Below are positions 6,074 through 38,000 of a stretch of 64,000 bases of DNA, piece after piece (positions within the stretch are counted from its first letter, which is position 1; each line of letters opens with the position of its first letter). The notes under the pieces were generated by a model. The model did not search any database, was not told the DNA's origin, and saw only the letters and a program-made list of their open reading frames with translations. Both the position numbers and the translations under genes were made by a program. The DNA comes from Nematopogon swammerdamellus (lineage: Eukaryota > Arthropoda > Insecta > Lepidoptera > Adelidae). The stretch spans positions 1,526,754 to 1,590,753 of the forward strand of contig OX336343.1 of NCBI GenBank assembly GCA_946902875.1, read 5' to 3'.

Positions 6074-6223
6074 ATGCGCAGGAGACAAGAGGGGCACGCG
6101 GCGGGCGGCGGTGGGGAGCTGGTGTGTCGGGTGTGCACGGGCAGCGGCTGTACACCGCTGCGCGAGACTCTCGGGGACGGCGGCGACATCATGTCGGCCG
6201 TCTGCTCCGTTACTGGTGTAGCG
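6074..6223 (+). CDS. Gene 1 exon 1: ZAD first half
   Basis: Encodes 'ELVCRVCTGSGC' with the first ZAD cysteine pair and ends 'SVTGVA' at a GCG|GTACGC donor, phase 0. A minus-strand SINE-A starts about 25 bp into the intron. Confidence 0.85.
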
Positions 6224-9200
6224 GTACGCTGGCACTGCACTATTTTTATTTATTTATTTATTTTATGGAAACTGACACGGTTGGCTACATCACCAACAAC
6301 ATCCGTGATGAGGGCAAACATACTCAAAAACCCGAGGACACTCCAAGAGGCCTGCAAGTACGTCGGCAGCCTGCAGGACTTCTGGAAGGAGCTGGGCTGG
6401 ATCGAGTAGCGGCCGGGGTGATACGCACAGCGGGTCCAAGAAGAGCGACCTACATGCGGAAAATGCCCATCAAGAAGAAGAAGAAGAAGATCCGTGATGT
6501 TAGCCCATAACACCTTGGTGAACTAGGTGCCATTTCATTAATGTCGGCTACACTGAACTGGACGGAAAGCGCTAACTATTTACATAGCCGTTTCGACCGA
6601 CGTTTCGCTCAGTGCGGTGCTAGCAACCCGGGCGGGATAAAACCTACCACCTAGTGAGATAAGAAGGAAAGGGACATACAGTTTTAACGTGGAATCCGAA
6701 CCACGGTCAGCCTCCAACGGTCGAGCGGTCAGTACCCATCCAAGTACTGACCGCGCCCAGGGTTGCTTAATAACAGTCGACCGACCGCACCACTGAGCTA
6801 CCGAGCCTGACAAAATTGTATTGCTATTGTATATTGTTTATTAAGTGGTGCGATTGGTCGACAGTCGTTCGTGATCATAAGCACAGTGTGTTCAAATTTT
6901 GGGCCACTAGCAAAAAAAAAATATTCCTCCCGGTCTGAACGTTTTTATTAATTAAACCTTCTAACGAAACTAAAAAAAAAATATTTTTTTATTTTTATGT
7001 AAGGCTGAGTCGGAGGGGCCAAAGCACATGCTCCGATCAGCGAATATCACCTCCGAGAAGGTAGGTGCCATACCGGAGACTTCCCTGGATTCCTGGCTAA
7101 ACTGGACTAGAGGAGAACACAACCGAGGCTGCTATCTGGCCATCTTACATCCAGTGCGGTGGTACCAACCCAGTCGGCTACAAATTTAAACCTACCACCT
7201 AGTAAGGGGCAAGGGAAGGGACCTACAGTTTTACACCGGTTCCGAACGGTGAAGCACTCATTGATACACGCCGACCGGATTCGAACCTCGGACCTCTCGC
7301 ATGAGAAGCCGATGCCCAAAACACTTGGCCACCCGCCGCTTAAAATGAATGTGTTGCAGATGAGCGTTGAGGACAGCTTCCCCAAGTACATCTGCACGGC
7401 GTGCCTGCAGCTGCTGCGGTCCGCCCTGGAGCTCCGCCGCACCTGCCAGGCCTCCGACCGCAAGTTCCGCTCGGCACTCACCCAGCACTGTACGTGCACG
7501 CCTCTTCTTTTTTTTTTTTATGGAAACTGACACTTTTGGGTACATCACCTACAACATCTGTGATGTCAGCCCATAACACAGGGTGAACTTGGTGCCACGT
7601 CAGCCTTCCCTTCGGTCGTGGCGGCTACACTGAACTGGACGGAAAACACTAACTATTTACATAGCCGTTTCGACCGACCTTTCATTCAGTGCGGTGGTAC
7701 CAACCCGGGCGGGTTAAACCCTACCACCTATTAATATAAGAAGGGAGTCATAGCCCTTAGTCGCCTTTTACGACATACACGGGGAGAGTAGCAGTGGGGC
7801 TATTCTTTTAAAGTACCGGCCCCACACGGTTCTATGATTGATTATAATTTAAAGTGTGATAGTTAGTGCACCCTCTTATGACTGCAACCTAGGAAGATCT
7901 ATAGCAGGGGTGTCCAACCTAATGCAGTGGCGGGCCAGTTTAATAATTTTTACCAATGTGAAGGGCCAGAGCAGATGTTTATTTCTAGGGAAAGACAAGA
8001 GTGCTAATGTAATTATAACGCTTTGCTATAGTTTTCCATGTATCTAATTTATTATACATATATTGGTAAACAATGGTAAATTTCAATTTAAGCACAAGTT
8101 CTTACTAAATACAAAACTTAATGTGATTTTTGACATTGTTTTTTTTACACAGTGAGTCTATAACAGGTGATATTTTGAATGTTGCGATGCGGAGAAGGCC
8201 GTTCAGGTGGTTGTCTGTCAGAGATGATCTATGTAGTCTTTAATTTTACATGCTTCATGCGGGAAAAAACTGCTCGCAAGAATAAGTACTTCCAAATAAA
8301 GACACTTGTTGTAAAGCCAGCTTAGATAAGTTTGGATACCGATCAGGTTTTATGTATTTTTTGTAAAATTCGATCTGTCCATTCTGTAGGCAACTATTAT
8401 AGGCAGTTATAGAAGACTACTATACTATTATAGAAGACTATTATTACTTTGCAGCTCAATCAACTCCATTTGGATATGTTGATCCGCATATTCAATCTCG
8501 ATATCAAATGGATTTTTAAACACTTTCATGTAGGGTTCCTGAATTTTAAACTCGTTGAACCTCTCGTCAAATTCATTCCTTAGTTTTTGAAGCAAAGCCA
8601 CAAACTTTCCGAAATCCAGAGTCTGTTGATTTCGAGTAGTAAGGGTCTCTCAATGTCCCAACGGTTTTTACCTAACTGTTACTCCAGCAATATTAACTTT
8701 TTGGTGAAAGCTTGAACATGTTCATAGAGTTCAGAAACTAAGTTGATCCTTGAAGTTTTTGATTGTTGGCGAGATATTTAGTTATGTCAACCAAAAAAGC
8801 TAGATCAGTCAACCACTGCTCATCATCCAAAAAGCCAACGTCTTGTCCTTTGCTGTTCATAAAAAAAATTATTTCATCCAGGAGAGAATAAAATCTGTGC
8901 CACTGTGGATGATCTGCAGAGCCAGCGAATGCGACTAAAGTATACTATATCTTCGTGCTGTGAATCTACTTCCAACAAAAAAGCTTGAAATTGTCTGTGG
9001 TTTAGTCCTCTTGCACGTATTAAATTTATGGTTCGTATTACCTTTTCCATCACATGTTTCATTTCAACCACTTTCGCACATAGTTGCTCCTGGTGAATAA
9101 TACAGTGATGTTTTACAATTGAGTGATCCATGCTATTGTTCATCAAAGTCACAAGGCCATTTGTTCTTCCTGTCATCGCTGGTGCACCGTCTGTGGTTAG

Positions 9201-12200
9201 GGCGGTAAGATTGTGATCTGGAAGACCAAACTTTCCCATGCAACTTCTTACTTCTTCATAGGTGTCTTGTCCTGTTGTGGTGCCTTTCATCGAGCGCAAG
9301 TCAAGTAGTTCCTCGATGACTACATAGTTATTGTTTACTCCCCTGACAAAAATTGCCAACTGCGCTGTATCTGAAATGTCTGTACTTTCATCGAGCGTAT
9401 TCAATTCGCGCACTTTGCGTATCAAATCGGCCGCCAAAACAGTATTTTGTAAAAAAGCAAGACATGGCGGGCCGGATTGACCGCTCCCTACGGCCCGTAT
9501 GTTGGACAGCCTTGATCTATAGTAATCTCTCAAAAGTTTGGAGCTCACCCCCAAGTCCGATTTCCGCTATGAACCGATTATATTCTTTGGGTTGAAGTGC
9601 CTGCCAAATACAGGCCTGTCAAATCACATTCCCATATCCATTTATTTTTTCGGATATCAAATACCTACCCATATCATACTAAAATAATAGTTTATTGAAC
9701 AATTATTTCATTGCATGGGTAGATATCGTAAAAAAAAAACAAATGGGTACGGGAACGTGATCAGTATCCATACACGCACACCCCTTCATCATCATCAGCC
9801 TGTATCGGTCCACTGCTGGACCTAGGCCTCTCCCAAGGCATACACCCCTTAGCGTAAAGTTACCTACTAATGAAAGATGTAGTTACTTGAGCTGGAAAAA
9901 AAACTAATCGCAGATCGTCCTTGCAGTCAGAACTTCAAAACAAAACCAAAATCTGTTTTTGATCTTGCTCTCAAGCTGTATTGTCAATCGACTGTAGGCG
10001 GTGTTATTATGTGGATAGTCACTAAATGATTGTAAAAATGACTATGAAAAAAAAAACCCTGCGAAGTTTCTTACCGGTTCTTCTTCGTGGGTGTAATCGA
10101 ATCGGATAGAACAAATTGTAACAAATTCGAGTACAGTCATGCTGTCTAATGAATGCTTAATAAACAATATACAATATACAGAGGGAACAAAAAAAAAACT
10201 TGAGCTGGGACCACTTCAAAGCAAATAAATGCTTTATTTTCAGGTAATTTGTCAACGAAGAATTCATACCCCTACTCCAAGCACAACTTCCAGCTGATGC
10301 TGCACCAGATGAAGCTGAGACAGATAGAGGCCGTGGAGCGGACGGAGAAGGCAAACATCAACCGTGCCAAGAGGAAGAAGCAACGCATTAAGAAGGAAGA
10401 GAAAGTCACCGCCAACAAGTTTACATGCAAACCTTGCAACCTGCCATTCCCCGATAAGGTAAACATGTTTATATATAGACTGTTTTTTTGGAAGACGGAG
10501 GAAAGTGACGTTTAGAGTGTTGCCAGTTTCTGGCAAATTTTAAATAGGCATGTAGTTGCTATCGATGCTTTTATCGATTGATTAACTAATGAAATGCTGT
10601 AAACTCTAATATTTACCTAATTGTGGATTTAATTGACAACATATTTATTAAGCTAAATCTAGCTAGAAAAATGTTAACTTGGCAGCGCCACAGGTAGCGC
10701 ATAATATGTGTGAAGGTGTGTCGTGTTCGTGTTGTGTAAAAGTCGATACTATTTTCATCAACTACAATCACTAGTGGTGCAAAGCGTGCAACACTCTAAT
10801 GTCAGTCAAACGTCAATTTACTCCGTCTTCCAAAAAAACAGACTATATGCCTACTAGCTTTGCCCGCGACTTCGGACTTATCACGCCATCTACCGGGTCC
10901 AATTGTATTTTCAAACCATCCCGGGACCCACACAAATATACACACAAAATTTCATCCAAATTGGTCCAGCCGTTTAGGTGGAGTTAGGTTACAAACACAC
11001 GTACAGAAGAATTATATATGTATATATAAGGATGGAGCTACAGATAGATAGATCGAAATTTCTTTATTGCTCCAATAAACAAACAACAGTACTAAGTACA
11101 TTAGAAAATTTACATAAGGTGCAAAGGCGGACTTATCGCTTACAGAGATTCTTACGATTCTTACAGTAAACCTATGGATGTTTGAGATTCGATTAATATA
11201 GTGGAATGTAAGTAGGTAGTATCAAAAGAGTTGAGCGTGAGAATTGAATTTTAGTGGACTACGACACAGCGCCGCGCGTGAGACACAGTGAGACGGTGAA
11301 GAATGTTTGCATTTGACAGCTTTTTTAATATATTTTGAAATAGTCTTCTAAGATTTATGCAAAATAATATTTTAGCAACGGGCGCGGCGCGCGTGCGTGC
11401 GGCACCCGTGCCACATCTGCGGGCAGCTGGTGCTGAGCCTGCGGCAGCAAGTGCGCGTGCTGCACGGCCAGCCGCGCGCGCACACGTGCCACGTCTGCGG
11501 CAAGGAGTTCCCCATCGTCGCGCGCCTGCGCAGCCATCAGTCAGTGTAACCTGGTTATACACGGTGTTGCAGGAGAGGCTGGTCGCGCACCGGGCGCGGC
11601 GTGCGTGCGTGCGGCACCCGTGCCACATCTGCGGGCAGCTGGTGCTGAGCCTGCGGCAGCACGTGCGCGTGCTGCACGGCCAGCCGCGCGCGCACACGTG
11701 CCACGTCTGCGGCAAGGAGTTCCCCATCGTCGCGCGCCTGCGCAGCCATCAGTCAGTGTAACCTGGTTATACACGGTGTTGCAGTTGCCCCCGTAATATT
11801 TTAACTGACATAAGGGGGTTATTCTATAGGTAAAACTAAATAACTTGTGTGAAGAAAAAGAAATTTTTTTCCATACAAATTTTTAATTTCATAATTTATG
11901 GAAAAAAAAATTTTTTTTCTTCAAATAAAAAAGTCGTAGAACAAAAGTTGTTCTATTTCACATACAGAATCACCCACTTTCGGGTTTTACGGTTGGGGTT
12001 GCAACACTGTGTATAAAGAAAGGAATTGAAAATGGCGGCATTTTACCGCTGTACAGTCGACATGCAATTTTTTATTTGCAAATTTTTGTCTTTGAACAAT
12101 TGCTTTATTTTCTTTAGACGGCAATACTGTGCCAGCGAGAGGAAAAAAGGAATGCCGCCATTTTCAATACCTTTCTTTAAATTACTATACTATAGTACGT

Positions 12201-15200
12201 TCAAACCTATCATATTCGTGAATTCGCTTCAGATTCAAATTCACATATTTATTTTTCCATAAAGAACACACAACATTTTATACAATATTTCATTCACACA
12301 AATGTTTAGCAATTCAATTCATAAGGAAGAATGACTGTAGTGTGTGAAATGGTTGTGGCTTCCAGTGTGAAGTGGCAGGTCCCGCCAATGCCCTGCTCCC
12401 AATACACACCACCCTTTGTGTGACCTTATTTCAGCCAGCAACACTAAAGCAGTGCTTCCTCCTGCAGGCTACTGCACACACCACACTTTGTGTGACCTTA
12501 TTTCAGCCAGCGACACTAAAGCAGTGCTTCCTCCTGCAGGCTACTGCACACACCACACTTTGTGTGACCTTATTTCAGGAGGCAACACTAAAGCAGTGCT
12601 TCCTCCTGCAGGCTACTGCACACACCACACTTTGTGTGACCTTATTTCAGCCAGCAACACTAAAGCTGTGCTTCCTCCTGCAGGCTACTGCACACACCAC
12701 GCTTTGTGTGACCTTATTTCAGCCAGCAACACTAAAGCAGTGCTTCCTCCTGCAGGCTACTGCACACACCACACTTTGTGTGACCTTATTTCAGCCAGCA
12801 ACACTAAAGTAGTGCTTCCTCCTGCAGGCTACTGCACACACCACACTTTGTGTGACCTTATTTCAGCCAGCAACACTAAAGCAGTGCTTCCTCCTGCAGG
12901 CTACTGCACACACCACACTTTGTGTGACCTTATTTCAGCCAGCAACACTAAAGCAGTGCTTCCTCCTGCAGGCTACTGCACACACCACACTTTGTGTGAC
13001 CTTATTTCAGCCAGCAACACTAAAGCAGTGCTTCCTCCTGCAGGCTACTGCACACACCACACTTTGTGTGACCTTATTTCAGCCAGCAACACTAAAGCAG
13101 TGCTTCCTCCTGCAGGCTACTGCACACACCACACTTTGTGTGACCTTATTTCAGCCAGCGACACTAAAGCAGTGCTTCCTCCTGCAGGCTACTGCACACA
13201 CCACACTTTGTGTGACCTTATTTCAGCCAGCAACACTAAAGCAGTGCTTCCTCCTGCAGGCTACTGCACACACCACACTTTGTGTGACCTTATTTCAGCC
13301 AGCAACACTAAAGCAGTGCTTCCTCCTGCAGGCTACTGCACACACCACACTTTGTGTGACCTTATTTCAGCCAGCAACACTAAAGCAGTGCTTCCTCCTG
13401 CAGGCTACTGCACACACTACACTTTGTGTGACCTTATTTCAGCCAGCAACACTAAAGCAGTGCTTCCTCCTGCAGGCTACTGCACACACCACACTTTGTG
13501 TGACCTTATTTCAGCCAGCAACACTAAAGCAGTGCTTCCTCCTGCAGGCTACTGCACACACCACACTTTGTGTGACCTTATTTCAGCCAGCAACACTAAA
13601 GCAGTGCTTCCTCCTGCAGGCTAATGCACACACCACACTTTGTGTGACCTTATTTCAGTCAGCAGCACTAAAGCAGTGCTTCCTCCTGCAGGCTACTGCA
13701 CACACCACACTTTGTGTGACCTTATTTCAGCCAGCAACACTAAAGCAGTGCTTCCTCCTGCAGGCTACTGCACACACCACACTTTGTGTGACCTTATTTC
13801 AGCCAGCAACACTAAAGCAGTGCTTCCTCCTGCAGGCTACTGCACACACCACACTTTGTGTGACCTTATTTCAGCCAGCAACACTAAAGCAGTGCTTCCT
13901 CCTGCAGGCTACTGCACACACCACACTTTGTGTGACCTTATTTCAGCCAGCAACACTAAAACGGTGCTTCCTCCTGCAGGCTACTGCACACACCACACTT
14001 TGTGTGACCTTATTTCAGCCAGCAACACTAAAGCAGTGCTTCCTCCTGCAGGCTACTGCACACACCACACTTTGTGTGACCTTATTTCAGCCAGCAACAC
14101 TAAAGCTGTGCTTCCTCCTGCAGGCTACTGCACACACCACACTTTGTGTGACCTTATTTCAGCCAGCAACACTAAAGCAGTGCTTCCTCCTGCAGGCTAC
14201 TGCACACACCACACTTTGTGTGACCTTATTTCAGCCAGCAACACTAAAGCAGTGCTTCCTCCTGCAGGCTACTGCACACACCACACTTTGTGTGACCTTA
14301 TTTCAGCCAGCAACACTAAAGCAGTGCTTCCTCCTGCAGGCTACTGCACACACCACACTTTGTGTGACCTTATTTCAGCCAGCAACACTAAAACGGTGCT
14401 TCCTCCTGCAGGCTACTGCACACACCACACTTTGTGTGACCTTATTTCAGCCAGCAACACTAAAGCAGTGCTTCCTCCTGCAGGCTACTGCACACACCAC
14501 ACTTTGTGTGACCTTATTTCAGCCAGCAACACTAAAGCAGTGCTTCCTCCTGCAGGCTACTGCACACACCACACTTTGTGTGACCTTATTTCAGCCAGCA
14601 ACACTAAAGCAGTGCTTCCTCCTGCAGGCTACTGCACACACCACACTTTGTGTGACCTTATTTCAGCCAGCAACACTAAAGCAGTGCTTCCTCCTGCAGG
14701 CTACTGCACACACCACACTTTGTGTGACCTTATTTCAGCCAGCAACACTAAAGCAGTGCTTCCTCCTGCAGGCTACTGCACACACCACACTTTGTGTGAC
14801 CTTATTTCAGCCAGCAACACTAAAGCAGTGCTTCCTCCTGCAGGCTACTGCACACACCACACTTTGTGTGACCTTATTTCAGCCAGCAACACTAAAACGG
14901 TGCTTCCTCCTGCAGGCTACTGCACACACCACACTTTGTGTGACCTTATTTCAGCCAGCAACACTAAAGCAGTGCTTCCTCCTGCAGGCTACTGCACACA
15001 CCACACTTTGTGTGACCTTATTTCAGCCAGCAACACTAAAGCTGTGCTTCCTCCTGCAGGCTACTGCACACACCACACTTTGTGTGACCTTATTTCAGCC
15101 AGCAACACTAAAGCAGTGCTTCCTCCTGCAGGCTACTGCACACACCACACTTTGTGTGACCTTATTTCAGCCAGCAACACTAAAGCAGTGCTTCCTCCTG

Positions 15201-18200
15201 CAGGCTACTGCACACACCACACTTTGTGTGACCTTATTTCAGCCAGCAACACTAAAGCAGTGCTTCCTCCTGCAGGCTACTGCACACACCACACTTTGTG
15301 TGACCTTATTTCAGCCAGCAACACTAAAGCAGTGCTTCCTCCTGCAGGCTACTGCACACACCACACTTTGTGTGACCTTATTTCAGCCAGCAAAACTAAA
15401 GCAGTGCTTCCTCCTGCAGGCTATTGCACACACCACACTTTGTGTGATCTTATTTCAGCCAGCAACACTAAAGCAGTGCTTCCTCCTGCAGGCTACTGCA
15501 CACACCACACTTTGTGTGACCTTATTTCAGCCAGCAACACTAAAGCAGTGCTTCCTCCTGCAGGCTACTGCACACACCACACTTTGTGTGACCTTATTTC
15601 AGCCAGCAACACTAAAGCAGTGCTTCCTCCTGCAGGCTACTGCACACACCACACTTTGTGTGACCTTATTTCAGCCAGCAACACTGAAGCAGTGCTTCCT
15701 CCTGCAGGCTGCTGCACACACCACACTTTGTGTGACCTTATTTGAGCAAGCAACACTAAAGCAGTGCTTCCTCCTGCAGGAGGAAGCTGCACACACCACA
15801 CTTTGTGTGACCTTATTTCAGTCAGCAGCACTAAAGCATGTTTGCCCCCACAGACTAGTGCACACGAACACGTTCAGCTTCCATTGCGACATGTGCCCGT
15901 ACAAGAGCAAGCACAAGTACTATCTGGTGATGCACATGCGCACTCACACCGGCGAGAAGCCGTACAAGTGCGACGCGTGCGACGCGACCTTCGTCAACCC
16001 GTCCAACCTCAACAAGCACCGGCTCACACACAGGGAGAAACAGTTTCAGGTATCAACGATCAAGTTGAGAGAGATTTTCGATGTGTTAACAGCTACATCG
16101 GGACCCTGAGACAGGCCTCACGCAGTCTATGTACTTGCGCGCGCTAACTACCTACCGCCCGGTGGACCGCCGGCGGTGTAATTCAGTAAAAATTCGTCAG
16201 CCGCGGGAAACATACCTACACGCTCGCCCACGCAAATGCGCGCAGCTGCAAAGCAATAATGCACTTTACACTCGATCGTTTAGGTAAATTTTCGCATGCA
16301 GTGATTGGCGACGTGAAACAATAGGCTATTAAAGCCGAAGGTATGGAACTTTTTCTATGGAGTGATTTATCTGTTACGAAGTAACTATTAAGTAATCTGT
16401 GCCTGAGGTTTATCGGGGCTGGAGTTAATTGCGATTTGGTAACAGTAACACTCACACTCACACACAAATTTTTTTTTATGGAACCTGACATAGTTGGTGA
16501 TGCCGGTCCATTAGGACCGTGGTGGTCTTGGTGCAGTGTCAGCGCTTCCCTTTGTTCGTGCTGGCTACATTGAAATGAACGGAAAACATTTACTATTTTC
16601 ATAGCCGCTTCGACCGACCTTAACATATTGCAAATAGTACGGTAAGGTACCTATAGCCGCTCTACAGTCTCTTCGAGAACCTAGGCCAGCCAAGATCGAC
16701 GCTGAACTCATATATGGAGAGAGCTTCGAAAACGTCACTGGAGGCATCCCACAGAATGTGGATAGGTAGAGAGAAGGAGGTCGAGAGTTGGACTAGTCTA
16801 GTCATCGCAGACTAGCTTCTTTTTTTTTTATGTAATCCGGTATGTGTGGCTGAGTTGGAGGGGCTAAGGCGCATGCTCCGACCAGCCAATATCACCTCCA
16901 AGAAGGTAGGTGCCATACCGGAGACTTCCCTGGATTGCTGCTTATACTGGACTAGAGGAGAACACAACCGAGGCTGCTATGCGGCCATCTTACATCCAGT
17001 ACGGTGGTACGAACCCAGTCGGCTACAATTTGAGCCTACCACCTAGTAAGGGGCAAGGCTGACGAGGGCTTGATGCGAGCCGAAACGTCACGCACACTGG
17101 AGAACTACACAGAGTGGCCGCTCGCTAGTCCCGACCTCGATTGACACACCCCTCTACTGCCAATATGCCTGGATATGTTCTGTAAAGCCATTTCAAGAAG
17201 TATAGCTTTATAATAGGTATACGGATAGTAGCGTGTGGGGCCGGTACTTAAAGTACCGTGTGGGGCCGGTACTTAAAAAGTACCGTGTGGGGCCGGTACT
17301 TAAAAAGAATAGCCCCACTGCATCTCTACCCATGCATGTCGTAAAAGGCGACTAAGGGATAAGAACAAGATGCCGTGCTAAAGGGCGACAGGCTCGCCAC
17401 CTCTCACCTTGGCACGGTACTTCCACCGAGTCATGCAGCAGGTGGGATTTCGTGCCTTACTTGCTGCTTGATCGATTGAATCTTGTTCGAATACTTTGCG
17501 AAACGTGGTGGTCGGTGTTGTGCTGTAATTTACCACAGTTCTTGCAGCACAACACTGATTACTCTGCTTACCCCGTTTTTCGGGATTCAGCGTGTGTGAT
17601 ATGTAGCTATATAAATCATTATGTCTTTGTTTGGCAGTGTACGCTTTGCGAGAAAGCGTTCAGGACGAGCACTGCGCTACGCGAGCACCACGAGGCCGCC
17701 CACATGAATCTGAAGCACACCTGCAAGTACTGCGGCCGAGACTTCTGCTACAAGTATGTACACACTTGTACACACACGCTGCATCCCAACAGTCGGCTCC
17801 GGGGTGTATTGGCCCAATTATCATAATGCCAAGAATGTAATGTCCAATACTCAAAACGTCTAGTGGTCTAAATGTCCATTTATCAATAGACCTAGCTGCC
17901 AAAACGTCTTAAGTGGTCAAAATTTTTAGTTATCTAAAGACCTAGTTGCCAAAACGTTTTAGTGGTCAAAATGTCCAGTGATCAAAACCCAAACCCAGTT
18001 GCCAAAAAGTGTTGAAAAGAGAGTACTTTAAAAGAATAGCCCCACTGCATCTCTCCCCGTGTATGTCGTAAAAGGCGACTAAGGGATATGACTCCCTTCT
18101 TATATTACTAGGGTTTAACTCGCCCGGGTTAACTGCACTGAATGAAAGGTCGGTCGAAACGGCTATGTAAATAGTTTGTGTTTTCCGTCCAGTTCAGTGT

Positions 18201-21200
18201 AGCCGGCACGACCGAAGGGAAGGCTGACGTGGCACCAAGTTCACCCGGTGTTATGGGCTGATATCACGGATGTTGTAGGTGATGTAGCAGACCGTGTCAG
18301 ATTCCAGAAAAAAAACACATGTTGCATCCCAACAGTCGGGAGGGAAGTCTCCGGTATGGCACCTACCTTCGCGAAGGTGATATTGGCTGGTCGGAGCATG
18401 TGCTTTGGCCCCTCCGACTCAGTCACCCATTCCGGATTACATAAAAAAAAAACAAAAACTGACTAAGCTAAGAGCAAGTAAAAAAAAAAATAAACCTGCT
18501 AAACTACTAACCTTCAGGTCGGACCTGCGCAAACACGAGATCCGCTACCACAACCGCATCAAGAAGGACTACATCGGCGGCGAGCCCACTTACAAGCAGG
18601 TGGAGAGGCTGACGCGCGCGACGGACGCCGCCGGCGACCCCGCCAAGTGGGTGGAGGTCCCCGTCGTCACCGCCCCCGCGCCGCCGGTCGTCCCCGTGTT
18701 TCCGCAGACAACACTCTACGCTTACCAGTTGCCTGACACTTTCATGCAACCTACACTGGGTGAGCTTTTTAGCGTTCCGTATCCGGTATGGGACCCTATT
18801 ACTAAACCTACGCCGTCTGTCTGTCTGTCTGTCTGTCCGTCCGTCCGTCCGTCCGTCTGTCTGTCCAAGGGCTGTATGTCTTGAACCGTAGTAGGTAGCC
18901 TGTTGAAATTTTCACAGAATATTTGTTATTATGGCCGATATAACAACAAATAATAAAAATAAGAAAAAGTAAAAAATTCACAGGGGTTCCCATAGAAGAA
19001 ACCAAAAAGTGTATGCGCGCGCCATCTACCGAAAAGGGTATGAAGCATTTTAACTAATCATGAATTTTATCTCATATGAAACATTTCATAAACACACCAT
19101 AGATTTTTGAGTTCATGCTTTACATAAGCTGGTTTGCACGTGAAATAAGTTAAACCTACCATGCCCGATACAGGAATATACCCAGTGAGCATTTTAACTA
19201 ATCATGACATTTAACTAATATGAAGCATTAGCAAAAATATCAAACACGCCATAGATGGAGTGAGTGGCGCTAGCCATGACATGGCGATACGGAACCCTCG
19301 GTGTGCGAGTTCGACTCGCACTTGCCCCTTACTAGGTGGTAGGCTCAAATTGTAGCCGACTGGGTTGCTACCACCGTACTGGATGTAAGATGGCCGCATA
19401 GCAGACTCGGTTGTGTTCCTCTCTAGTCCAGTATTGCCAGCAATCCAGGGAAGTCTCCGGTATGGCGCCTACCTTCTCGGAGGTCATATTGACTGGTCGG
19501 AGCATGCGCTTTGGCCCCTCCGACTCAGCCACCCATACCGGATTACATAAAAAAAAAACAAAAACTTATTTTTTGACCTGGATTGAGTGACCTCTTCGCG
19601 TATTTCCTTTTCCGTGTTCAATAGGAGGCAGTACTGCCTTGAAACGCACACGGGTTTGTTAATCTCTCTTTTTTTTCAAACTCGTATTAAAATTCAAGGC
19701 CTGTCTGTTAACTGAATCGGATATTCGTCTGGTCACTTATGAGCTTTGGTGGTTCATTAGTAGAGTTTAGAGGGCAGTGTATAAATTTTTCGATCTCATG
19801 GTCATGGGTTCGATTCCCCCTCGTGCAAGTAATTTTTTTTTTTACTTTTTTATGACCAGCATTGTTAGAGTAATAAAAATAGGTTATGGTTATTTTTTTT
19901 ATAACCACATTTAAACAAAATTATTATCGGAAGTACGCCTTGAATTGAACACGAGTTTGAAAAGGGACTTGCACAAACCCGTGTGCGGTTCAAGGCTGCC
20001 TCCGGCCTCGTATGACCCCTTCAGATAGGTCAGAGCACAAATTCAGACCAGCCAATATCACCTCTGAGAAGGCACTTTATCGCAGACTTTTCTTTGGTTT
20101 GCTGACTAAAGTCGTATTTTTAATCAGACGAAGTAAACTGACAGTAGCTAATGTCACTTTGCAAAATAATGTTGCCTTATTTAATGTAATAGTGATGTGC
20201 TACGATAAAATCTAAACTTTTTTATTGTTTGGCCATCTGCGATCATAAACAATACTTTTAGTATATTTTTTTGTTTTCTGGGTTTGGCATTAAGAGGCTG
20301 AAGTCCAGTGAGCCCGGTTCTAAATTTTAATGCATTGGACTGTTCATTTCGAGAGGTTGCGCCTTATTCCATTCTTACCTTACTAGGTGGTAGGGTTTTT
20401 CCCGGCCGGATTTCTACCACCGCACTGAATGATACGTTGGTCGAAACGGCTATGTAAATAGCTCGTGTTTTCCGTCCAGTTCAGTGTAGCCGACATGAAA
20501 TGAGGAGAAGCACTGACATGGCACCTAGTTCACCCGGTGTTATGGGCTGACATCAGATTCAGGGATCGGAATTAGGTAGTGTGATTTGGTACCAAAGTAG
20601 GTAAAGTTCGCGAGAGGATATAGGTAATATGGAGTTGTTAAAACCACCACTTTGTTTGGGAATTCTGAACATTTCCTGAGAAAATTTCAGGGACTGGATT
20701 TTTCTTCGGGATCGTATTTATTGACTAAATACAAGCTTCTTTTGTTCTTAGCTGATTTTCTCTAGAGTGGCCGGTTATGGAGATATAATTTTTTTCATAA
20801 ATTTTTATTTCTACTCAATTTACAGGAAAACCGGGGAAGATGTGATAAAATAATCTAAGAGTGTATCGAACTGCTTACAAAACAAGACCTAATTTGTTGT
20901 CGTACCATCATTGGTTCTCGATTTATACCTCGCCGCGATTCTGAATTATGCAGGACGGCATTTGTATGGAAAGCTCCGCCCCCTTTCCTGATTTAATTTC
21001 TCCAATGTTGATATTTTTCGTCTGAATCTTATTTCTAGAGGAAATATAAGACACTTTTATTCTTACACGTTTTTCAATAAAATCGATATTTCCGGAGAAA
21101 AAAAATCTATTTTTTTTTTCCAAAATGTTCTCGATTGGTGATGTTTTTGGCATATTCTTATTTCTAAACAAAATATAAGACACTTTTATTCTTAGACGTT

Positions 21201-23455: not shown

Positions 23456-24370
23456 GGGCACACTAAAAGTTTCCGGAATTGGCCACTTACATAAACAATA
23501 TTTAAAAAGTAATTACAACATTTGAAAATGGAACTCTTTGGCTGTAGAATGCAGTTTGTTTCATCTGACTGTCAATTGTTTTTCCATTGTGGCGCCATTT
23601 TAAAAATTGCGTGTCTACATTAACATAAATTTAACCCGGAAAAATTTTCGTAGTATGATTTTCTACGATTTTAAGTGTAATTTGACAGCTCATCAGAGCC
23701 TCGCTCGGCTTCAATCTGCTTTTGGCGATGAAGCACCATGCAAGACGACTATTTATTGCTGGTTTGCAGAATTCAAGCGCGGTCGTGTCAATCTCAGTGA
23801 CTAATCTCGCGATGGTCGCCCGTTCACCGATGTGAACAACAAAAACATCGATGCTGTGCGCCGTATGATCGAAACATACAGGCATGTGACCTACCATGAG
23901 ATTCGGGCATCCTTAGACATAGGCATGAGTCAAATACAATCAATCCTACACAAACATTTGGGTGTGAGAAAGCTGTGCTCGCGGTGGAACCCTAACAATT
24001 TGACCGAGGCTCAAAAACGCACCGCGTCACTTGGTGCAATGCCATGCTTACCAGATGCAACAAAGGCGCCTCAAATTTGGTGTGGGACATAGTAACAGGT
24101 GACGGCACCTTGTGACTTTTTTCTGTTCCCAAAAATTAAGAACCAATTACGCGGTCAACGATTTTCATCGCCAGAAGAGGCTGTCGAAGAATATGAAAAA
24201 CACGTTTCTGAGGTCACCACGGAGGAGTGGCACAAAAGTTTTCAAAATTGGTTTAATCGTATGAAAAAGTGCATTTACGCAAAGGGAGAATATTTTGAGA
24301 AACAATAAATTCATTTTTGTCCTTTAATAGTATTTTATTCTTATTAATTCCGGAAACTTTTAGTGTGCCC
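23456..24370 (+). pseudogene. mariner element with internally deleted transposase
   Basis: TIRs GGGCACACTAAAAGTTTCCG and inverse CGGAAACTTTTAGTGTGCCC. The transposase reads 'LQSAFGDEAPCKTTIYCWFA', an early in-frame stop, then 'TYHEIRASLDIGMSQIQSIL' and, after loss of the central part including the first catalytic aspartates, the C-terminal 'CDFFLFPKIKNQLRGQ' (third acidic-triad region) and 'WFNRMKKCIYAKGEYFE'. Inactive. Confidence 0.9.
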
Positions 24371-29000: not shown

Positions 29001-32000
29001 CGTGTGCGTCAAACTAAGAAAGAAGAAAGAAAGAAACATTTTTAACGGCAGACAGAACTCACAGATGTCGCGTGAGGGAGCCCTTCATGATGAAGCTCTT
29101 GCCGCAGACGTCGCAGATGTGCGACTCAGCTTGCGTGTGGAAGCGCGTCACGTGCGCTCGCAGGCTGCCCTCGCACACGAGTATCTATAGAGCAGACAGA
29201 ACTCATAGATGTCGCGTGAGGGAGCCCTTCATGATGAAGCTCTTGCCGCAGACGTCGCAGATGTGCGACTCAGCTTGCGTGTGGAAGCGCGTCACGTGCG
29301 CTCGCAGGCTGCCCTCGCACACGAGTATCTATAGAGCAGACAGAACTCATAGATGTCGCGTGAGGGAGCCCTTCATGATGAAGCTCTTGCCGCAGACGTC
29401 GCAGATGTGCGACTCAGCTTGCGTGTGGAAGCGCGTCACGTGCGCCCGCAGGCTGCCCTCGCACACGTGTATCTATAGAGCAGACAGAACTCACAGATGT
29501 CGCGTGAGGGAGCCCTTCATGATGAAGCTCTTGCCGCAGACGTCGCAAATGTGCGACTCAGCTTGCGTGTGGAAGCGCGTCACGTGCGCCCGCAGGCTGC
29601 CCTCGCACACGAGTATCTATAGAGCAGACAGAACTCACAGATGTCGCGTGAGGGAGCCCTTCATGATGAAGCTCTTGCCGCAGACGTCGCAGATGTGCGA
29701 CTCAGCTTGCGTGTGGAAGCGCGTCACGTGCGCCCGCAGGCTGCCCTTGCAGACGATGAGGCTGCACTCGGGGCACTGCACGCGCGGCTTGCGGTGCGAC
29801 TCTGACTTGCGGTGCTCTAGCAGCTCCTCCTACATGAATAGAAGAAAAAAGAATAGAATAGAATTTATTGCACAAAAAAAAGCAAAGAATTTTTTTTATT
29901 TTATGTAATCCGGTATGGGTGTCTGGGTGAGGAATATGTGACTGAAGCAATAGTATTAAACTGAATGTTCACAAGAATCGTAAAATATTTTTTTTTTGTA
30001 ATCCGGTATGGTTGGCTGAGCCGGAGGGACCAAAGCGCATGCTCCGAACCGCCAATATCACCTCCGAGAAGGTAGGTGCCATACCGGAGACTTCCGTGGA
30101 TATCATGCTGGCTATACTGGGCTAGAGGAGAGCACAACCGAGGCTGCTATGCGGCCATCGTCGTCGGCTACAATTTGAGCCTACCATCTAGTAAGGGGCA
30201 AGGGAAGGGACCTACAGTTTTACACCGGTTCCGAACGGTGAAGCAGCAGATGTAGGTATGCACATGGGTCTCTGAGTGAGGAATGTGTGACTGAAGCAAT
30301 AGGATTAAAACTGAATGTTCAAATTAAAATAGTCATGTCGTGCTGCCGCTGGGGTAGTGCATTGCTTTAAGGTCTTTGCTTACGGTGACGCTTGGTACGG
30401 GTTGCCTCCCGTGCTCAAATATGGTTGAGGGAGGCGATGGCTGGCCCTGGCGTGATGCCCGTGAACGGGTGCTGTTTGTGGAGACTGACCTGCTCCAATT
30501 GGCAACATGTTATCTGAATGGTATACTTACTTATGTATGTATAATACTACTTACCTGACTGCATAAAATTGCAACATGACATTTTTACAATTCATCTGCA
30601 CATTTAGTATGTAGAGAGTTGCCGGGTTGGTCCCACCGCACTGAATGAAATGTCGGTTGAAATGGCTAAGATGTAAATAGTTCATGTTTTCCATCCAGTT
30701 CTGTGTAGCCCACATGAAAAGATATTGAGCTACTAGAGAGAGTACAGCGGCGAGCAACAAAGATGGTATCATCAATTAAAAATAAAACATATGAAGATCG
30801 CTTACAGGCACTGGGATTAACAACTCTTGAGAAAAGGAGACAATGAGGAGACATTATAGAAACCTATAAAATCCTAAAAGAATGCTACGATGTACCAAGT
30901 CTACAGTCAATGTACGAAAGGAGCACTGAAGAACGTCTTCGCGGTCACTCATTAAAACTAAAATGGCCCACACATAGAACCAACCCCAGGAAGCATTTTC
31001 TGACGCACCGGGTCGTAAGGGCCTGGAACAAATTATCTGAGGACACCGTCAGCGCCCCCTCGGTTAATTCTTTAAAAAACAATACAAGTGCACTCATAAA
31101 TTTAAAAAACAATACAAATCAAACCCAAGAAAACACTTTATTGCCAACCGGGTAGTTGACTCGTGGAACAGACTCCCAGAGGAAGTGATTCTACTTCAGT
31201 GAACAGCTTCAAAAACAGACTTGACATCTATATAAAAAACCACAAACTTTAGAACGAAATAAAAAAAAAAAAAACAAAACAAAAAAAACAAAAACAAAAA
31301 AACAAAACAAAAAAAAATCTAACAAGTGCACCATCAATTTACCAACTTCGATGTACACGCATCAGCTTTAAGCTGCTAGTGTATCTAAACAATAATAATA
31401 ATACACGCACCAGCTGTGAGCTGTCAGTGTTTAAAATAAATAAATAAATGAAATGAAGGGAACCACTGACATGGAACCTAGTTCATAGTTATGGGCTGAC
31501 ATCACGGATGAAGCGTGTCAGTTTCAATAAAAATTAAAAATTAAAAACAGCATTTTAGTATGTGGAGTATAGAAAGAAATAAACCTACAGCATTCGCGAA
31601 GTCTATCTGACATTTACGACAGCGAAATATGCTGCTATCCTTTTCTGTGTTCTCATCATCACTATGGTGCTCCCTGTCGTCATTGTCATCATCGTCATCA
31701 TTGTGCCAAGTCAATGCTTTATCATTGTTCATGTCGCAGCCGTGCGAGTAGTTTGCTATCGATGGTGGCTTCATTTCTGAAAAGAAAATTCTAAAAATTT
31801 ATATATTTCACAGTTTTCATGTTTGCATTAACTTTTAATGCTGGCATTATAGTTTTATCTCGCTCTAACTAAGCCATTAAATGCAGATGAAACTAAAATA
31901 TTGGCATCACAAATACACCTACGCCATGTGTCAGGAAAGAAATTTATTGCACAAAAAAAAGCAAAGAATTTTTTTTATTTAGAGCGACTTTTTTAATACC

Positions 32001-35000
32001 GCTAAATCCAATTCAGGACAAAACATATATTATGTCAGTGTTATTTTATGTTTATATGTTAGTACTAAGCACGTACTCGCTTTATATAATATATTTTTAT
32101 TAGAAAAATGCAAAGCGAAAATCATTGGAAAAAATACATCCCGGCCAGGATTCGAACCTGGGTCTTTGGATTGAGCCGCCAACGCGATAACCAACTACGC
32201 CACCGGACCGTTACGTATTATCTCCAAATTTTCGCTCGCTTGCACCTTCATGATGATGTCGCATAATTGACTGTTCGCAAAAATTATGCGACATCATCAT
32301 GAAGGTGCAAGAGAGCGAAAATTTGGAGATAATACGTAACGGTCCGGTGGCGTAGTTGGTTATCGCGTTGGCGGCTCAAGCCAAAGACCCAGGTTCGAAT
32401 CCTGGCCGGAATGTATTTTTTCCAATGATTTTCGCTTTGCATTTTTCTAATAAAAATATATTATGTCAATGTTTTTCGGTTACGCGGTAAACATTGTCAT
32501 AATGTGTAATAGCGGTAAAAGCCTAAACGAAAACATATATTCTTTTAGTTCCGCTTGAAATGGCTAAATTCAAGGGTGGATCAAGGATTTTTTTTCGGGA
32601 GGGGCAAAGGGGCAGATGGCTCACGACAAATTCGAAAAGTCACTCTTATTATATAATATACATACATACCACACGCTGCATCCCGACTATCGGCGTAAAC
32701 AGAGTCGTCGGTGTTGTGCTGCAAGTACTCTTGTAAATTACAGCACAACACTGCCGACCACCACATTTAGCAAAGTATTAGGACAAGACAACAAGCGGCG
32801 GGTGGCCGAGTGGTTTGGGCATCGGCTTCTCATGCGAGAGGTCCGCGGTTCGAATCCCGTCGGCGTGTACCAATGAGTTTTTTCTGACGAAAAAATTTAT
32901 GTGCATACCTACACCTGCTGCTTCACCGTTCGGAACCGGTGTAAAACTGTAGGTCCCTTCCCTTGCCCCTTACTAGGTGGTAGGCTCAAATTGTAGCTGA
33001 CTGGGTTGGTACCACCGTACTGGATGTAAAATGGCCGCATAGCAACCTCGGTTGTGTTCTCCTCTAGTCCAGTATAGCCAGCAATCCAGGGAAGTCTCCG
33101 GTATGGCACCTACCTTCTCGGAGGTGATATTGGCTGGTCGGAGCATGCGTTTTAGCACCTCCAACTCAGCCACCCATACCGGATAACATAAAAAAAAAAA
33201 CTATCAAGCAGAAAGTAAGGCACTAAGACCCGCCTGCTGCATGACTCTGTGGAAGGACCGTTACAAGCTGAGAGGTGGCTAGCCCGTCGCCCTTATGCAC
33301 GGCATCTTGTCCTTATCCCTTAGTCGCCTTTTACAACATGCATGGGGAGAGATGCAGTGGGGCTATTCTATTCTACTCCTATATATACCGTCTTTCATTA
33401 GTAGGTAATACGCTGTAATTCATGCGCGGGAAATTTAGAGTGGCCACTCGCTAGTCCCGACCTCGATTAACACCTGTTCTGTCCACTTACTGTGCTGGAT
33501 ATGGGCCTCCGCGTTTCGGCTCCACCTTCCAGGAGTGCATCTATGAATGAACTGCTCCATGCGGGTAGTTTTTAATCCAATGTTAATGTTCACTCAAAGT
33601 CATGACTACCCACATATGTTTTACTGTATGTGCATACATAACATGCCTTTCCCCAAGGTCTATAGATACACTTTGTTTTAAATCACTTTTTACACTACCC
33701 GGTTCATTTATATCTATTAAATCTAATTAATTCTAGGAAAGTTTATATATATATTTGAGCTTTGTATTGGTTGTTTAATTGTCGAATGACTGGTCGAGAT
33801 CCAGCCATTCGTCACTACTGCTGCTCTCGCCGTGCGACTGTGACAGTGCTACTCTTTTACTGTCGGTTGTCGGTGGGCTATCAGTTTCTCTAGCTCGTTT
33901 ACTTGCTCCAGGACGAGGTCTATTTTCACAACTACTGGTGTCGGTGGACTTGGGAATTCCAATAATATCACCCCAATGTCTGGGCGAAGGGATTCTTATA
34001 GTGCCATAGCTGCTATCATTATCAGATTGCTGTGACCGTGGTACCTCTTCATTCTCTACCTGTGGCAATTCAGCATTGGCTTCTCCTCCCCCATAAGTAA
34101 ATCCAAGTATTTGGTTGACATGTCGTGACAGGATCTTGTTGTTGAACGTGATTTGGTATCGGCACACTCCAACTCTCTTTAACACGGTCCCTTTTAACCA
34201 TCGTTTACCTCGAGTGTAATTTCGGAACATTACTGTCTCTCCTGTTTTGAATGTTCGGGGCTGTTTACTTTGATTTTCTTCAATATCGTTTGTTTGTTTC
34301 GATGGTCTTGACAATGGGTTGAGACTGTCAAACTTGGTCCTAAATTTTCTGTTATTAAGCATCTCAGCCGGTGTTCTGCCGGTTACCGTGCTCGGTGTAG
34401 CTCGGAGACCATATAACATTTGTGGCAGCCGAATGTTCCATGGTCCATTTGAAATTTTCTTTAATTTATTTTTTACTGACTGGACCGTTCTCTCTGCTTG
34501 CCCGTTCGATGCTGGATGGTGAGGGGATATCAAAATTTGTCTTATTCCATTGTTCTTTAAATACTCCTTGATCAATTCCCCTGCAAAAGCTTAAGCCATT
34601 GTCACTTACGACCGTTTCTGGCAGTCCTTGGTATGAAAATACGTCTTTTAGTGAATTTATGACTGCCACACTAGTCTGCTCGGACATCATCTTAACTTCT
34701 GGCCACTTTGAGTAGGCGTCTATTATAATCAAGAATGTTTTTCCCTGAAACGGTCCAGCAAAATCTACATGTAGTCTCGACCACGGTTTGTCGGGAGTTA
34801 TCCACTTATGCGTTATTTTTGCTGGCATATTTCTCACGTCTCTACACTTTGGACACTTGTCAATCATTTCTTCTATTTGTTTATCTAAATTTGGCCACCA
34901 AAAATAGCTTCTTGCCATCGCTTTAGTGATTACGATTCCATCATGATTCTCGTGTAGTTCCTCTAATACATGAGCGTGTAGTTTCTCCGGAAGTACTACT

Positions 35001-38000
35001 CTATTTCCCCATAAAATACAGTTATCAAATACCGATAATTCTTCTCTTTTCGCCCAAAAATCTTTAAATTGGGAATCTACTTTTACCGGCCAGCCGTTAC
35101 GTATCCAATAAATGACCTTTGCTAGTGTGTGATCCTTGCTGGTCAATTTTGCCACATCTTTTGCCGTCACATTCAACTCTATCGGTGTCTCGTGTATGAG
35201 CAGAACGTGAGCCTCTTCTTCTTGCAAATCCCCCGTTTCGTGAGCTGGCCATCTGCTCAATGCATTGCTCAGTTGTTTCCCTGCTACATACTCAATGTTA
35301 TAATCGTGAGAATTTAGTAGAAGTGACCAGCGTAACATCCTTGGCGATATAACATTCGGTATTGCTTTCTTAGGATCAAATATTCCAAGTAACGGCTTAT
35401 GATCTGTCTTAATTGTAAATTTACGCCCGAAAATGTATTGATGAAATTTTTGTAGCCCGAAAATGATTGCTCCCGCTTCCTTATCAATTTGTGCATAATT
35501 CCTTTCATGCGAATTCATGGTTCTCGATGCAAACATTATTGGTCTCACAGACCCATCTTCCATTTTGTGTTCCAGGACAGCTCCCAAACCATATTGTGAC
35601 GCGTCGCATGATATTATTACATCTTTCCTCACATCGTAATGTACCAGTGTCTGTCCGGCTGTCAACATATTTTTAAGTATTTTGAATGCTTGTTGACGTT
35701 TACGCTCCAGTGCCATTTCCTACCTTTCTCTAGCAGTTCATAGAGTGGTTCGGCTACTGTAGCCTTACGTGGTAAAAACCGATCATAAAAGTTTAACAAA
35801 CCTAGGAACGCTTGCAACTCTTTGATATTCTGCGGCGCCGGAGTGTCCTTTATCGATTTTATCTTTTCCCCACAGGGGTGCAATCCTTCTGCATCTATCT
35901 GGTATCCAAGAAACTCCACCAATGGCGTAGCAAATTTGCATTTCTGTTTATTTACCCGTAGCCCAGCGTCTTGTAATTTTTGGAGTACTTGTTCCAATCT
36001 GTCATTGTGTTCCTCGACGTAGCGGCCCGTTATCACTATATCATCTAACAGCACTGCTATGCCGGCTATGTTTGCCAACAAGGAAGACATTAATCGCTGA
36101 AAAATTCCCGGACACGCTTTTACTCCGAAAGGAAGACGTTTAACTTTGAATAAACCTTTAGGTGTATTTAATGTTAATATTTTTGACGTCTGTTCATCGA
36201 CCAGCACCTGTGTGTACGCTTGCTCGAGATCGATCTTTGTAAAAATTACTCCTCCCTGTAGCGCAGCAAATGCTTCATTTAACGTCGGTAGGGGGTACGT
36301 ATCTGTTTCTGTCACTTTATTTACTGTAGCGCGGTAATCTCCACACAGTCTCACTGAACCGTTTTTCTTTAAAATTGGCACGATCGGACTGGCAAATTCT
36401 GAATGTGCGATTGGCTCAAGCGCGTCTTCCGATACGAGCCTATCAATTTCCTTCAATACTCTATTTCTTATTGCGAATGGGATAGGTCTGCTTTTCAAAA
36501 ACGTCGGGGCGGCTTCTGGCTTGAGCGGTATATTCACAATCGGACCTGTGTATTTACCTAGTCCTTCCTCGAATACTTTTGTGTATTTTAAGGTTATTTT
36601 ACTGACATCGGTCGTGTTCATCTGAATGTTATGAACCCCTTGCATGTTGATGTTCAACGCTGCAAACCAATCGCGTCCAATTAGACTCGGTCCATCGCCT
36701 TTCGCTACTAAAATATTTAATTTTTTTATCGCTTCCCTCCCCTGTACCGTCACCGTCGATTGTCCCAGCAAGCCAACTTTATTATTTGTCCAAGTTGTTA
36801 ATGATACGTTTGGTTCGTTGAACTTTGGCAGCTTATTATTCCATATATCGTTAGCTGTTTTCTCACTTATCATGGTGTAGCCTGCCCCTGAGTCCACTTC
36901 CATTCCTATCTGTTTATTATTTATTTTAACCTGCATTATGAAGGGTGGAATCCTGTCACTCCTCACGTGATGTATCACTTCTTCATACAACCCGTTCATC
37001 TTATCTCTATGTGATTTCTCCATCGGTTTATCTCTCTTCTTTTTTTCATAACACACTTTTTCTATGTGTCCAATTTTTTCGCAAAAATTGCATTTTTTCC
37101 AGCGGAATCTACACTGACCACTGTGCGACGCACCACACCGCCAACAACTCTGCTGTTCTGGCTTTGATTGCAGCTTATTTACGTCCATCGGTTCCTCTCC
37201 GGTGTCTGGAATGTACGGTGCCGACGTACTCGGTACTGTAGACATCAATAATACGTCGTTGTTTGCAGCTTCTGCAGCGATGGCTATTTCACAAGCTTGT
37301 TGAAAATTTAATTGAGATTTTTGCAATAAATCCTTCTGAGCTCTTTTATCTCTGATGCCGCACACCAATCTATCGCGTAAAGTACGTTTCAGGTCAACAA
37401 AATTACAGTCAATTGCTAGTTTACGCAGCTGTGCCAAATAATCTTTAATTTTCTCGCCTTCCTGTTGACATCTTGTGTGAAACTTATATGACTGTACGAT
37501 TTCATTTCGTATTGGATGGAAATGATTGTCGAGTACGACCTTGATGTGTGAAAAGGACACTTCACTCACCTGTTTTGGTGCAATTAATGATAATATTAAG
37601 TCATATAACTCATGCCCACACACTGACATAAAGTTTGCTTTTTTAACTCCATCCTCGGCATAATACTATTTGCCTCTAAACAAAAAGTAAATCTTTCCAC
37701 ATAACTCTTCCACCTATCACTTTCGAGGTTAAATTTATCAAATTTAACAGCCATTTTTTTTAGCACTGCATTTGTTTTTTCACATAAATTTTTACTACTA
37801 TCACTTTCCCTATTCTTTACTTCATTTTTCACTCGTCGCCAAAATGTTCTGTCCACTTACTGTGCTGGATATGGGCCTCCGCGTTTCGGCTCCACCTTCC
37901 AGGAGTGCATCTATGAATGAACTGCTCCATGCGGGTAGTTTTTAATCCAATGTTAATGTTCACTCAAAGTCATGACTACCCACATATGTTTTACTGTATG

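Follow-up and report, generated by a model that had tools for sequence, protein, structure and literature searches.

Inspection of a 64,000-nucleotide (nt) stretch of the moth Nematopogon swammerdamellus genome (contig OX336343.1; this whole stretch is called 'the window', and all coordinates are window positions, on the forward strand unless stated otherwise) leads us to read a 72-bp tandem array in intron 4 of a zinc-finger gene, gene A, as a 'mirage' in an insect, border minisatellites being already known from amphioxus. The array exhibits four features of mirages, that is, tandem arrangement, a unit spanning an intron/exon boundary, retained splice signals and a homogenised interior. We consider it probable that it is a mirage-type border minisatellite lacking a selected function; splicing may leak into its decoy sites. 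The DNA evidence comes from one genome assembly (699 Mb, 39 contigs), and gene A itself is, judged by its domains, a lepidopteran ZAD/C2H2 zinc-finger gene.

Tandem Repeats Finder (TRF) places the minisatellite-like array at 12404–15838 (47.7 copies of 72 bp, 98% matches), and our unit table shows that 28 of 47 units are identical to the consensus ACACACCACACTTTGTGTGACCTTATTTCAGCCAGCAACACTAAAGCAGTGCTTCCTCCTGCAGGCTACTGC, with 19 being variants. Each unit is made up of about 60 nt of intron end and 8–12 nt of exon start, and within the consensus CACTAAAGCA, a pyrimidine-rich tract, CTGCAG and GCTACTGCACAC follow each other in this order. The splice signals are largely intact: CTGCAG and TCCTGCAG are retained in all 47 units, CTACTGCACAC in 43 and CACTAAAG in 42. 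A second acceptor-like site per unit, TTATTTCAG, is likewise followed by an early stop; its TTTCAG, as well as TCAG, is kept in 46/47 units, and unit 47 lacks this site, having TTTGAG in place of TTTCAG. In all, about 94 acceptor-like sites are located 683 to ~4070 nt downstream of one donor and upstream of one true acceptor. When two units are folded as single-stranded DNA, a z-score of −1.86 is obtained, with 8 of 200 shuffles being equally good. The preliminary description of this DNA had proposed some 48 tandem units of 72 bp in front of a zinc-finger exon, each with a pyrimidine tract, CAG and an exon-like end; period, location and layout are confirmed, while the 48th unit turns out to be the border itself and the second acceptor-like site had been overlooked.

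That the unit crosses the exon/intron boundary of its host gene becomes apparent from an in-register alignment, in which the unit (GTGCTTCCTCCTGCAG|GCTACTGCACAC) is matched with the border (TGTTTGCCCCCACAG|ACTAGTGCACAC) and the last clear copy runs on through the authentic acceptor CCCCCACAG of the terminal, divergent unit (15788–15853). Scored in register and only beyond the end of the clear copy, this anchored extension attains a value of 12, which is equalled by none of 1000 dinucleotide shuffles and at none of 940 window positions outside the array (1000 positions were drawn and the 60 within the array dropped). Outside the array there are 3292 YAG sites, counting the real acceptor, and this acceptor alone matches the 12-nt exon core at nine or more positions (10/12), the next-best being seven sites with 8/12. 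A local alignment of the trimerised unit with 15788–15950 likewise passes through the acceptor as far as CACAC in the exon, and a two-unit query in a Basic Local Alignment Search Tool (BLAST) search of the assembly yields one match (88%) that reaches 15861, 8 nt inside exon 5.

That the array consists of copies of the intron/exon border, and that copying proceeded from border to array, appears well supported. The exon 4–exon 5 joint of gene A reads RLRSHQ-LVHTNTFSFHC, and the four best protein matches exhibit NHM-LVHTDTF (Ostrinia nubilalis), NHM-MVHTNTF (Eumeta japonica and Phthorimaea operculella) and NHM-LVHTNTF (Manduca sexta), orthology being judged here by similarity rather than from a tree. 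Since the start of exon 5 is common to these proteins (the named ones covering it) and to the Logan open reading frame (ORF) P0013, the border is taken to precede the array, and the exon not to be array-derived. When proteins were searched with a query leading from the last units into exon 5, exon matches were obtained (22 hits); in the two closest Logan ORFs that begin upstream of the exon, P0013 and P0121, the 13 and 2 residues, respectively, before RLVH are unlike the array, which is too few to judge their introns. Upstream, the array ends abruptly (extension score of 0 before 12404), and downstream it grades into the border. The proposal that the array grew from this border is thus borne out by the in-register alignment, the BLAST match, the shared exon start and the uniqueness in the assembly described below.

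The unit joint provides a hint as to how the array may have been born. The first unit starts inside ATACACACCAC, the exon reads GTGCACACG, and at the joint, TGCACACACCAC, the two meet: exon (GTGCACAC) and intron (ATACACACCAC) share the 4 nt ACAC, an overlap of the kind that a microhomology-mediated duplication is expected to leave. Probably, a tandem duplication of about 72 bp that arose by this route captured the last ~60 nt of intron 4 together with the first 8–12 nt of exon 5, and with them a branch-site-like sequence, the pyrimidine tract, the acceptor and the exon start. Growth to about 47 copies would have followed by unequal exchange or slippage, with the centre of the array staying homogeneous and its edges drifting.

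Such turnover is reflected in the distribution of the variant units, which make up 10 of the 12 units at the edges and 9 of the 35 inside (a skew as extreme arose in 13 of 20000 permutations), that is, in the homogenised interior and divergent edges of concerted evolution. A 13-unit block repeat is seen in that the variants of units 22 and 24 return in units 35 and 37; these variants are also found singly, in units 28 and 4. Unit 18 (13628–13699) carries both variants of the border copy (32T and 38G), which suggests exchange between the array and the real border. Moreover, unit 47 contains a perfect 22-nt palindrome, GCTTCCTCCTGCAGGAGGAAGC (15766–15787), where the consensus is only partly palindromic; this is what hairpin-templated copying would leave, and the palindrome indeed looks like the product of such copying or mutation.

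As had been predicted in the preliminary description, splicing of exon 4 into a unit would restore the histidine of the pending finger and then terminate: joining exon 4 to CTGCAG gives HQLLHTPHFV-stop in 43 of the 47 units, and near-identical stubs in the other four (one-residue variants in three, HQRKLHTPHFV-stop in one). The second site was scanned at 48 places, namely TTTCAG in 46 units and in the border copy, and TTTGAG in unit 47; all of them give a stop after 5 residues (HHQQH in 43, variants in 5). A transcript entering a unit would likely continue through the array into exon 5, unless an inner donor is used, and because its stop is located upstream of two introns, it would likely be a target of nonsense-mediated decay. 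Leaky splicing into the units would yield three-finger stubs or transcripts subject to such decay. The normal mRNA would use the terminal, authentic acceptor, mainly because exon 5 and its own donor are expected to be recognised as one entity (exon definition), most of the units being too far upstream: exon 5 has 196 nt when starting at the authentic acceptor, 228 nt from the border's own TTTCAG and 270 nt from the nearest CTGCAG, with 72 nt added by each further unit. Recursive splicing was also considered; by inspection, the consensus unit has no AG-GT joint.

Several points weigh against the reading of the array as a neutral mirage. The exon part shared by unit and border comprises only about 12 nt (10/12), and tests of their similarity are weak when unanchored, in that over the 112 nt of 15839–15950 shuffles do as well in 416 and 386 of 2000 cases (two scorings; not significant), and over 15839–15880 in 31 of 2000. 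The homology argument therefore rests on register. The claim of array birth from a single-copy state is based on the DNA of one species, and the copy number, coming from a single assembly, could be affected by how the repeat was assembled. Acceptors intact in 47/47 units could also mean selection, for which recent homogenisation is, however, a sufficient substitute. Furthermore, normal splicing past the array is assumed here, and the two unit sites score 4.85 and 3.09, compared with 2.38 for the real acceptor, which would predict noticeable use of the decoys. These scores were obtained with a rough matrix and rank sites only loosely; with the same matrix, nine acceptors of gene A and its paralogue B, the real one included, span 1.09–6.43. 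By sequence, the real site does not look the stronger one, and its use would more likely be due to its position.

If the array served as a length-dependent isoform switch or splice buffer, a share of transcripts would be spliced into the units in a regulated manner, and the resulting product, three-finger or decayed, would be adjusted through the number of copies. In line with this are the near-complete retention of both sites (CTGCAG in 47/47, TTTCAG in 46/47 units), which lead to a stop within 5–11 residues, the fact that unit sites score as well as real ones with the rough matrix, and two precedents: the minisatellite in intron 6 of human TERT, which in the cited part of PMC11830802 shifts splicing, and a C. 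elegans minisatellite that, according to the portion of PMC4039745 cited here, is enriched near multiple alternative splicing choices. Yet recent homogenisation by itself accounts for the intact sites, the TERT repeat reportedly works via G-quadruplexes, which by inspection are absent from the 72-bp unit, and amphioxus mirages are, according to PMC3087553, thought not to disturb splicing; we thus regard a switch or buffer as unlikely, and neutrality, i.e., the lack of a selected function, as most likely. Quite doubtful, too, is an extended variant in which the array acts as a rheostat, with ~94 acceptor-like sites competing with the real one and array length setting the share of full-length versus three-finger stub or decayed mRNA, and in which duplications on the donor side of exon 4 (see below) identify intron 4 as a place where borders in this family have been duplicated repeatedly. 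That the size of the array is in part an assembly artefact appears likewise rather improbable: a mirage, that of BflGb6, was misassembled in the amphioxus draft, as stated in the consulted section of PMC3087553, but the moth units carry position-specific variants in an ordered pattern and the array lies within one contig of the 39-contig assembly.

Very improbable, in our view, is a dispersed satellite or transposon-borne minisatellite that came to lie next to exon 5 and whose likeness to the border is accidental. Many arrays are generally known to arise in this manner, and the weak unanchored tests would fit; however, the copies are not found at many loci. All 47 matches to the 27-nt core (≤3 mismatches) in the 699-Mb assembly fall inside the array (reversed control: 0), as do all 22 BLAST matches of the two-unit query, the genome search being one that passes over simple repeats and very common words, and the in-register run into the exon is not reproduced in 1000 shuffles. 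As one would expect of a repeat from an insect, an exact 26-nt piece of the unit is absent from the collections of viral and prokaryotic contigs that were scanned. We give least credence to the array being an extension of the exon that is translated, in frame with exon 5, into repeats of 24 residues. It is true that a forward frame without stops extends over 1098 codons, from 12813 into exon 5, and that in the array this frame is stopped only once, in unit 6, but chance suffices to explain such openness: two open frames of six are the commonest outcome for shuffled units (1854/5000), and two or more occur in 3141/5000. Of the 19 variants in the first 46 units, a minority (7) are synonymous in this frame, a retained intron would stop at once after exon 4 (GTCAGTGTAA), and the unit acceptors feed another frame. 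Scoring of 7993 candidates yielded no homologue of the array frame with an E value of 10 or below, and the frame has no Pfam match. A coding role of the 1098-codon frame was rejected on these grounds.

It is instructive to compare the moth array with known border repeats. As described in the cited parts of PMC3087553 and PMC3902484, through which we also cite the original paper (10.1093/nar/gkf386), 'mirages' are border minisatellites of the amphioxus genes for the globins BflGb6 and BflGb9, Adh3 and troponin C, with similar but imperfect ones in PGBD5; their traits include length polymorphism or somatic instability, and regular splicing is thought to be undisturbed (PMC3087553). So far as these accounts extend, the moth array shares with them a minisatellite-like tandem duplication of an intron/exon boundary, splice signals in many units and an interior that is homogenised next to a divergent edge, and its 72-bp unit corresponds to the upper end of the 10–72 bp stated for Adh3. 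In contrast, the host is an insect, the copies number about 47 rather than the 3 and 6 of two BflGb6 haplotypes, the units include only 8–12 nt of exon, and the moth array is known here from DNA sequence alone. In the open-access literature searched, which leaves out most subscription papers, no border minisatellite of an insect was found.

More distant parallels exist. In human segmental duplications, the excerpted text of PMC2812944 reports internal tandem repeats at exon-intron boundaries, an example showing that such arrays can alter splicing; like the moth array, these are minisatellite expansions at splice borders of duplicated genes, some with cryptic splice sites, but they are located in exons or become new introns and have RNA support, whereas the moth array is intronic and its intron position is common with paralogue B. 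TERT VNTR6-1 (a variable number tandem repeat) is likewise an intronic minisatellite upstream of an exon (intron 6, 24–66.5 units, a splicing switch); unlike the moth array, it is linked to G-quadruplexes and is not described as a copy of a splice border in the consulted part of PMC11830802. Finally, intron gain in a potato gene for RNA-dependent RNA polymerase (RdRp) involved, in the section of PMC4974935 cited here, a tandem genomic duplication including splice signals, as in the moth array, but created a new intron, of which the moth array bears no sign.

The host gene can be delineated as follows. Pfam scans of spliced gene A translations, run as two separate pieces, identify a zf-AD domain (PF07776, E 1.3e-11, on the joined ZAD halves) and C2H2 fingers (PF00096, E 5.8e-22). 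The first half of the ZAD domain is encoded in the region of exon 1 (6113–6223, the 5′ limit of which may lie further upstream) and the second half in exon 2 (7360–7489); exon 3 (10244–10458) encodes a basic linker and the first half of finger 1. Exon 4 (11573–11751, the 3′ of two copies, with its donor at 11752), whose joint matches the related proteins, is followed by the 4102-nt intron 4 (11752–15853), in which a short transposon and, downstream of it, the array are separated by about 390 nt of other sequence. Exon 5 (15854–16049) encodes two C2H2 fingers, with LVHTNTF after a split codon, exon 6 (17638–17753) encodes further C2H2 fingers, and exon 7 starts at 18518, the end given (18884) being that of the open frame; related proteins support exon 3 and exons 5 to 7. 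Small tandem repeats are also present in introns 5 and 6, at 17216–17307 and at 17852–17987, the latter about 100 nt past the exon 6 donor.

Intron 4 is flanked by duplications on its donor side as well. In gene A, exon 4 with its donor lies in a 212-bp tandem duplication (11375–11784; 1.9 copies, 98%), and since ~14 nt at the start of the exon are missing from the 5′ copy, the functional one is probably the 3′ copy. In paralogue B, which has an intron at the same position, TRF detects a 144-bp duplication of the exon 4 end and donor (29048–29756, reverse strand; 4.9 copies); its five donors read, in transcript order, GT, GT, AT, AT and GT, and a donor is separated from the AG of the next copy by a spacer of 22 nt, less than an intron requires. 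Intron 4 may thus be prone to border duplications in this gene family, two genes being too few to say. A short inverted-repeat transposon with TATACACGGTGTTGCA-type ends occupies the start of intron 4 in gene A (11767–12016). Its first 18 nt recur without any difference as the acceptor in front of the 3′ copy of exon 4 (11555–11572), and were probably carried there by the exon 4 duplication. Outside the window, at least 39 places resemble the transposon (83–91% identity; 40 of 2393 first-look candidates were scored), and all six copies examined have at least one terminus, four of them both. As to the neighbourhood of paralogue B, an apparent ZAD half is located at 38939–39151, and the reverse-strand frames at 33775–37856, between this half and the zinc-finger part, are by eye what we take to be of long terminal repeat (LTR) retrotransposon type; remnants at 23805–24308 and 8874–9566 (reverse strand) are presumably, again by eye, those of Mariner-like and hAT-like transposases.

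As a natural ruler, the array places 47 nearly identical units between a single donor and a single true acceptor, and every unit has two acceptor-like sites except unit 47, which has lost one. The locus thereby bears on how the spliceosome chooses among near-equal acceptors, i.e., whether it takes the one transcribed first, the one nearest to the exon's donor or the strongest one, and RNA reads alone could answer this question.

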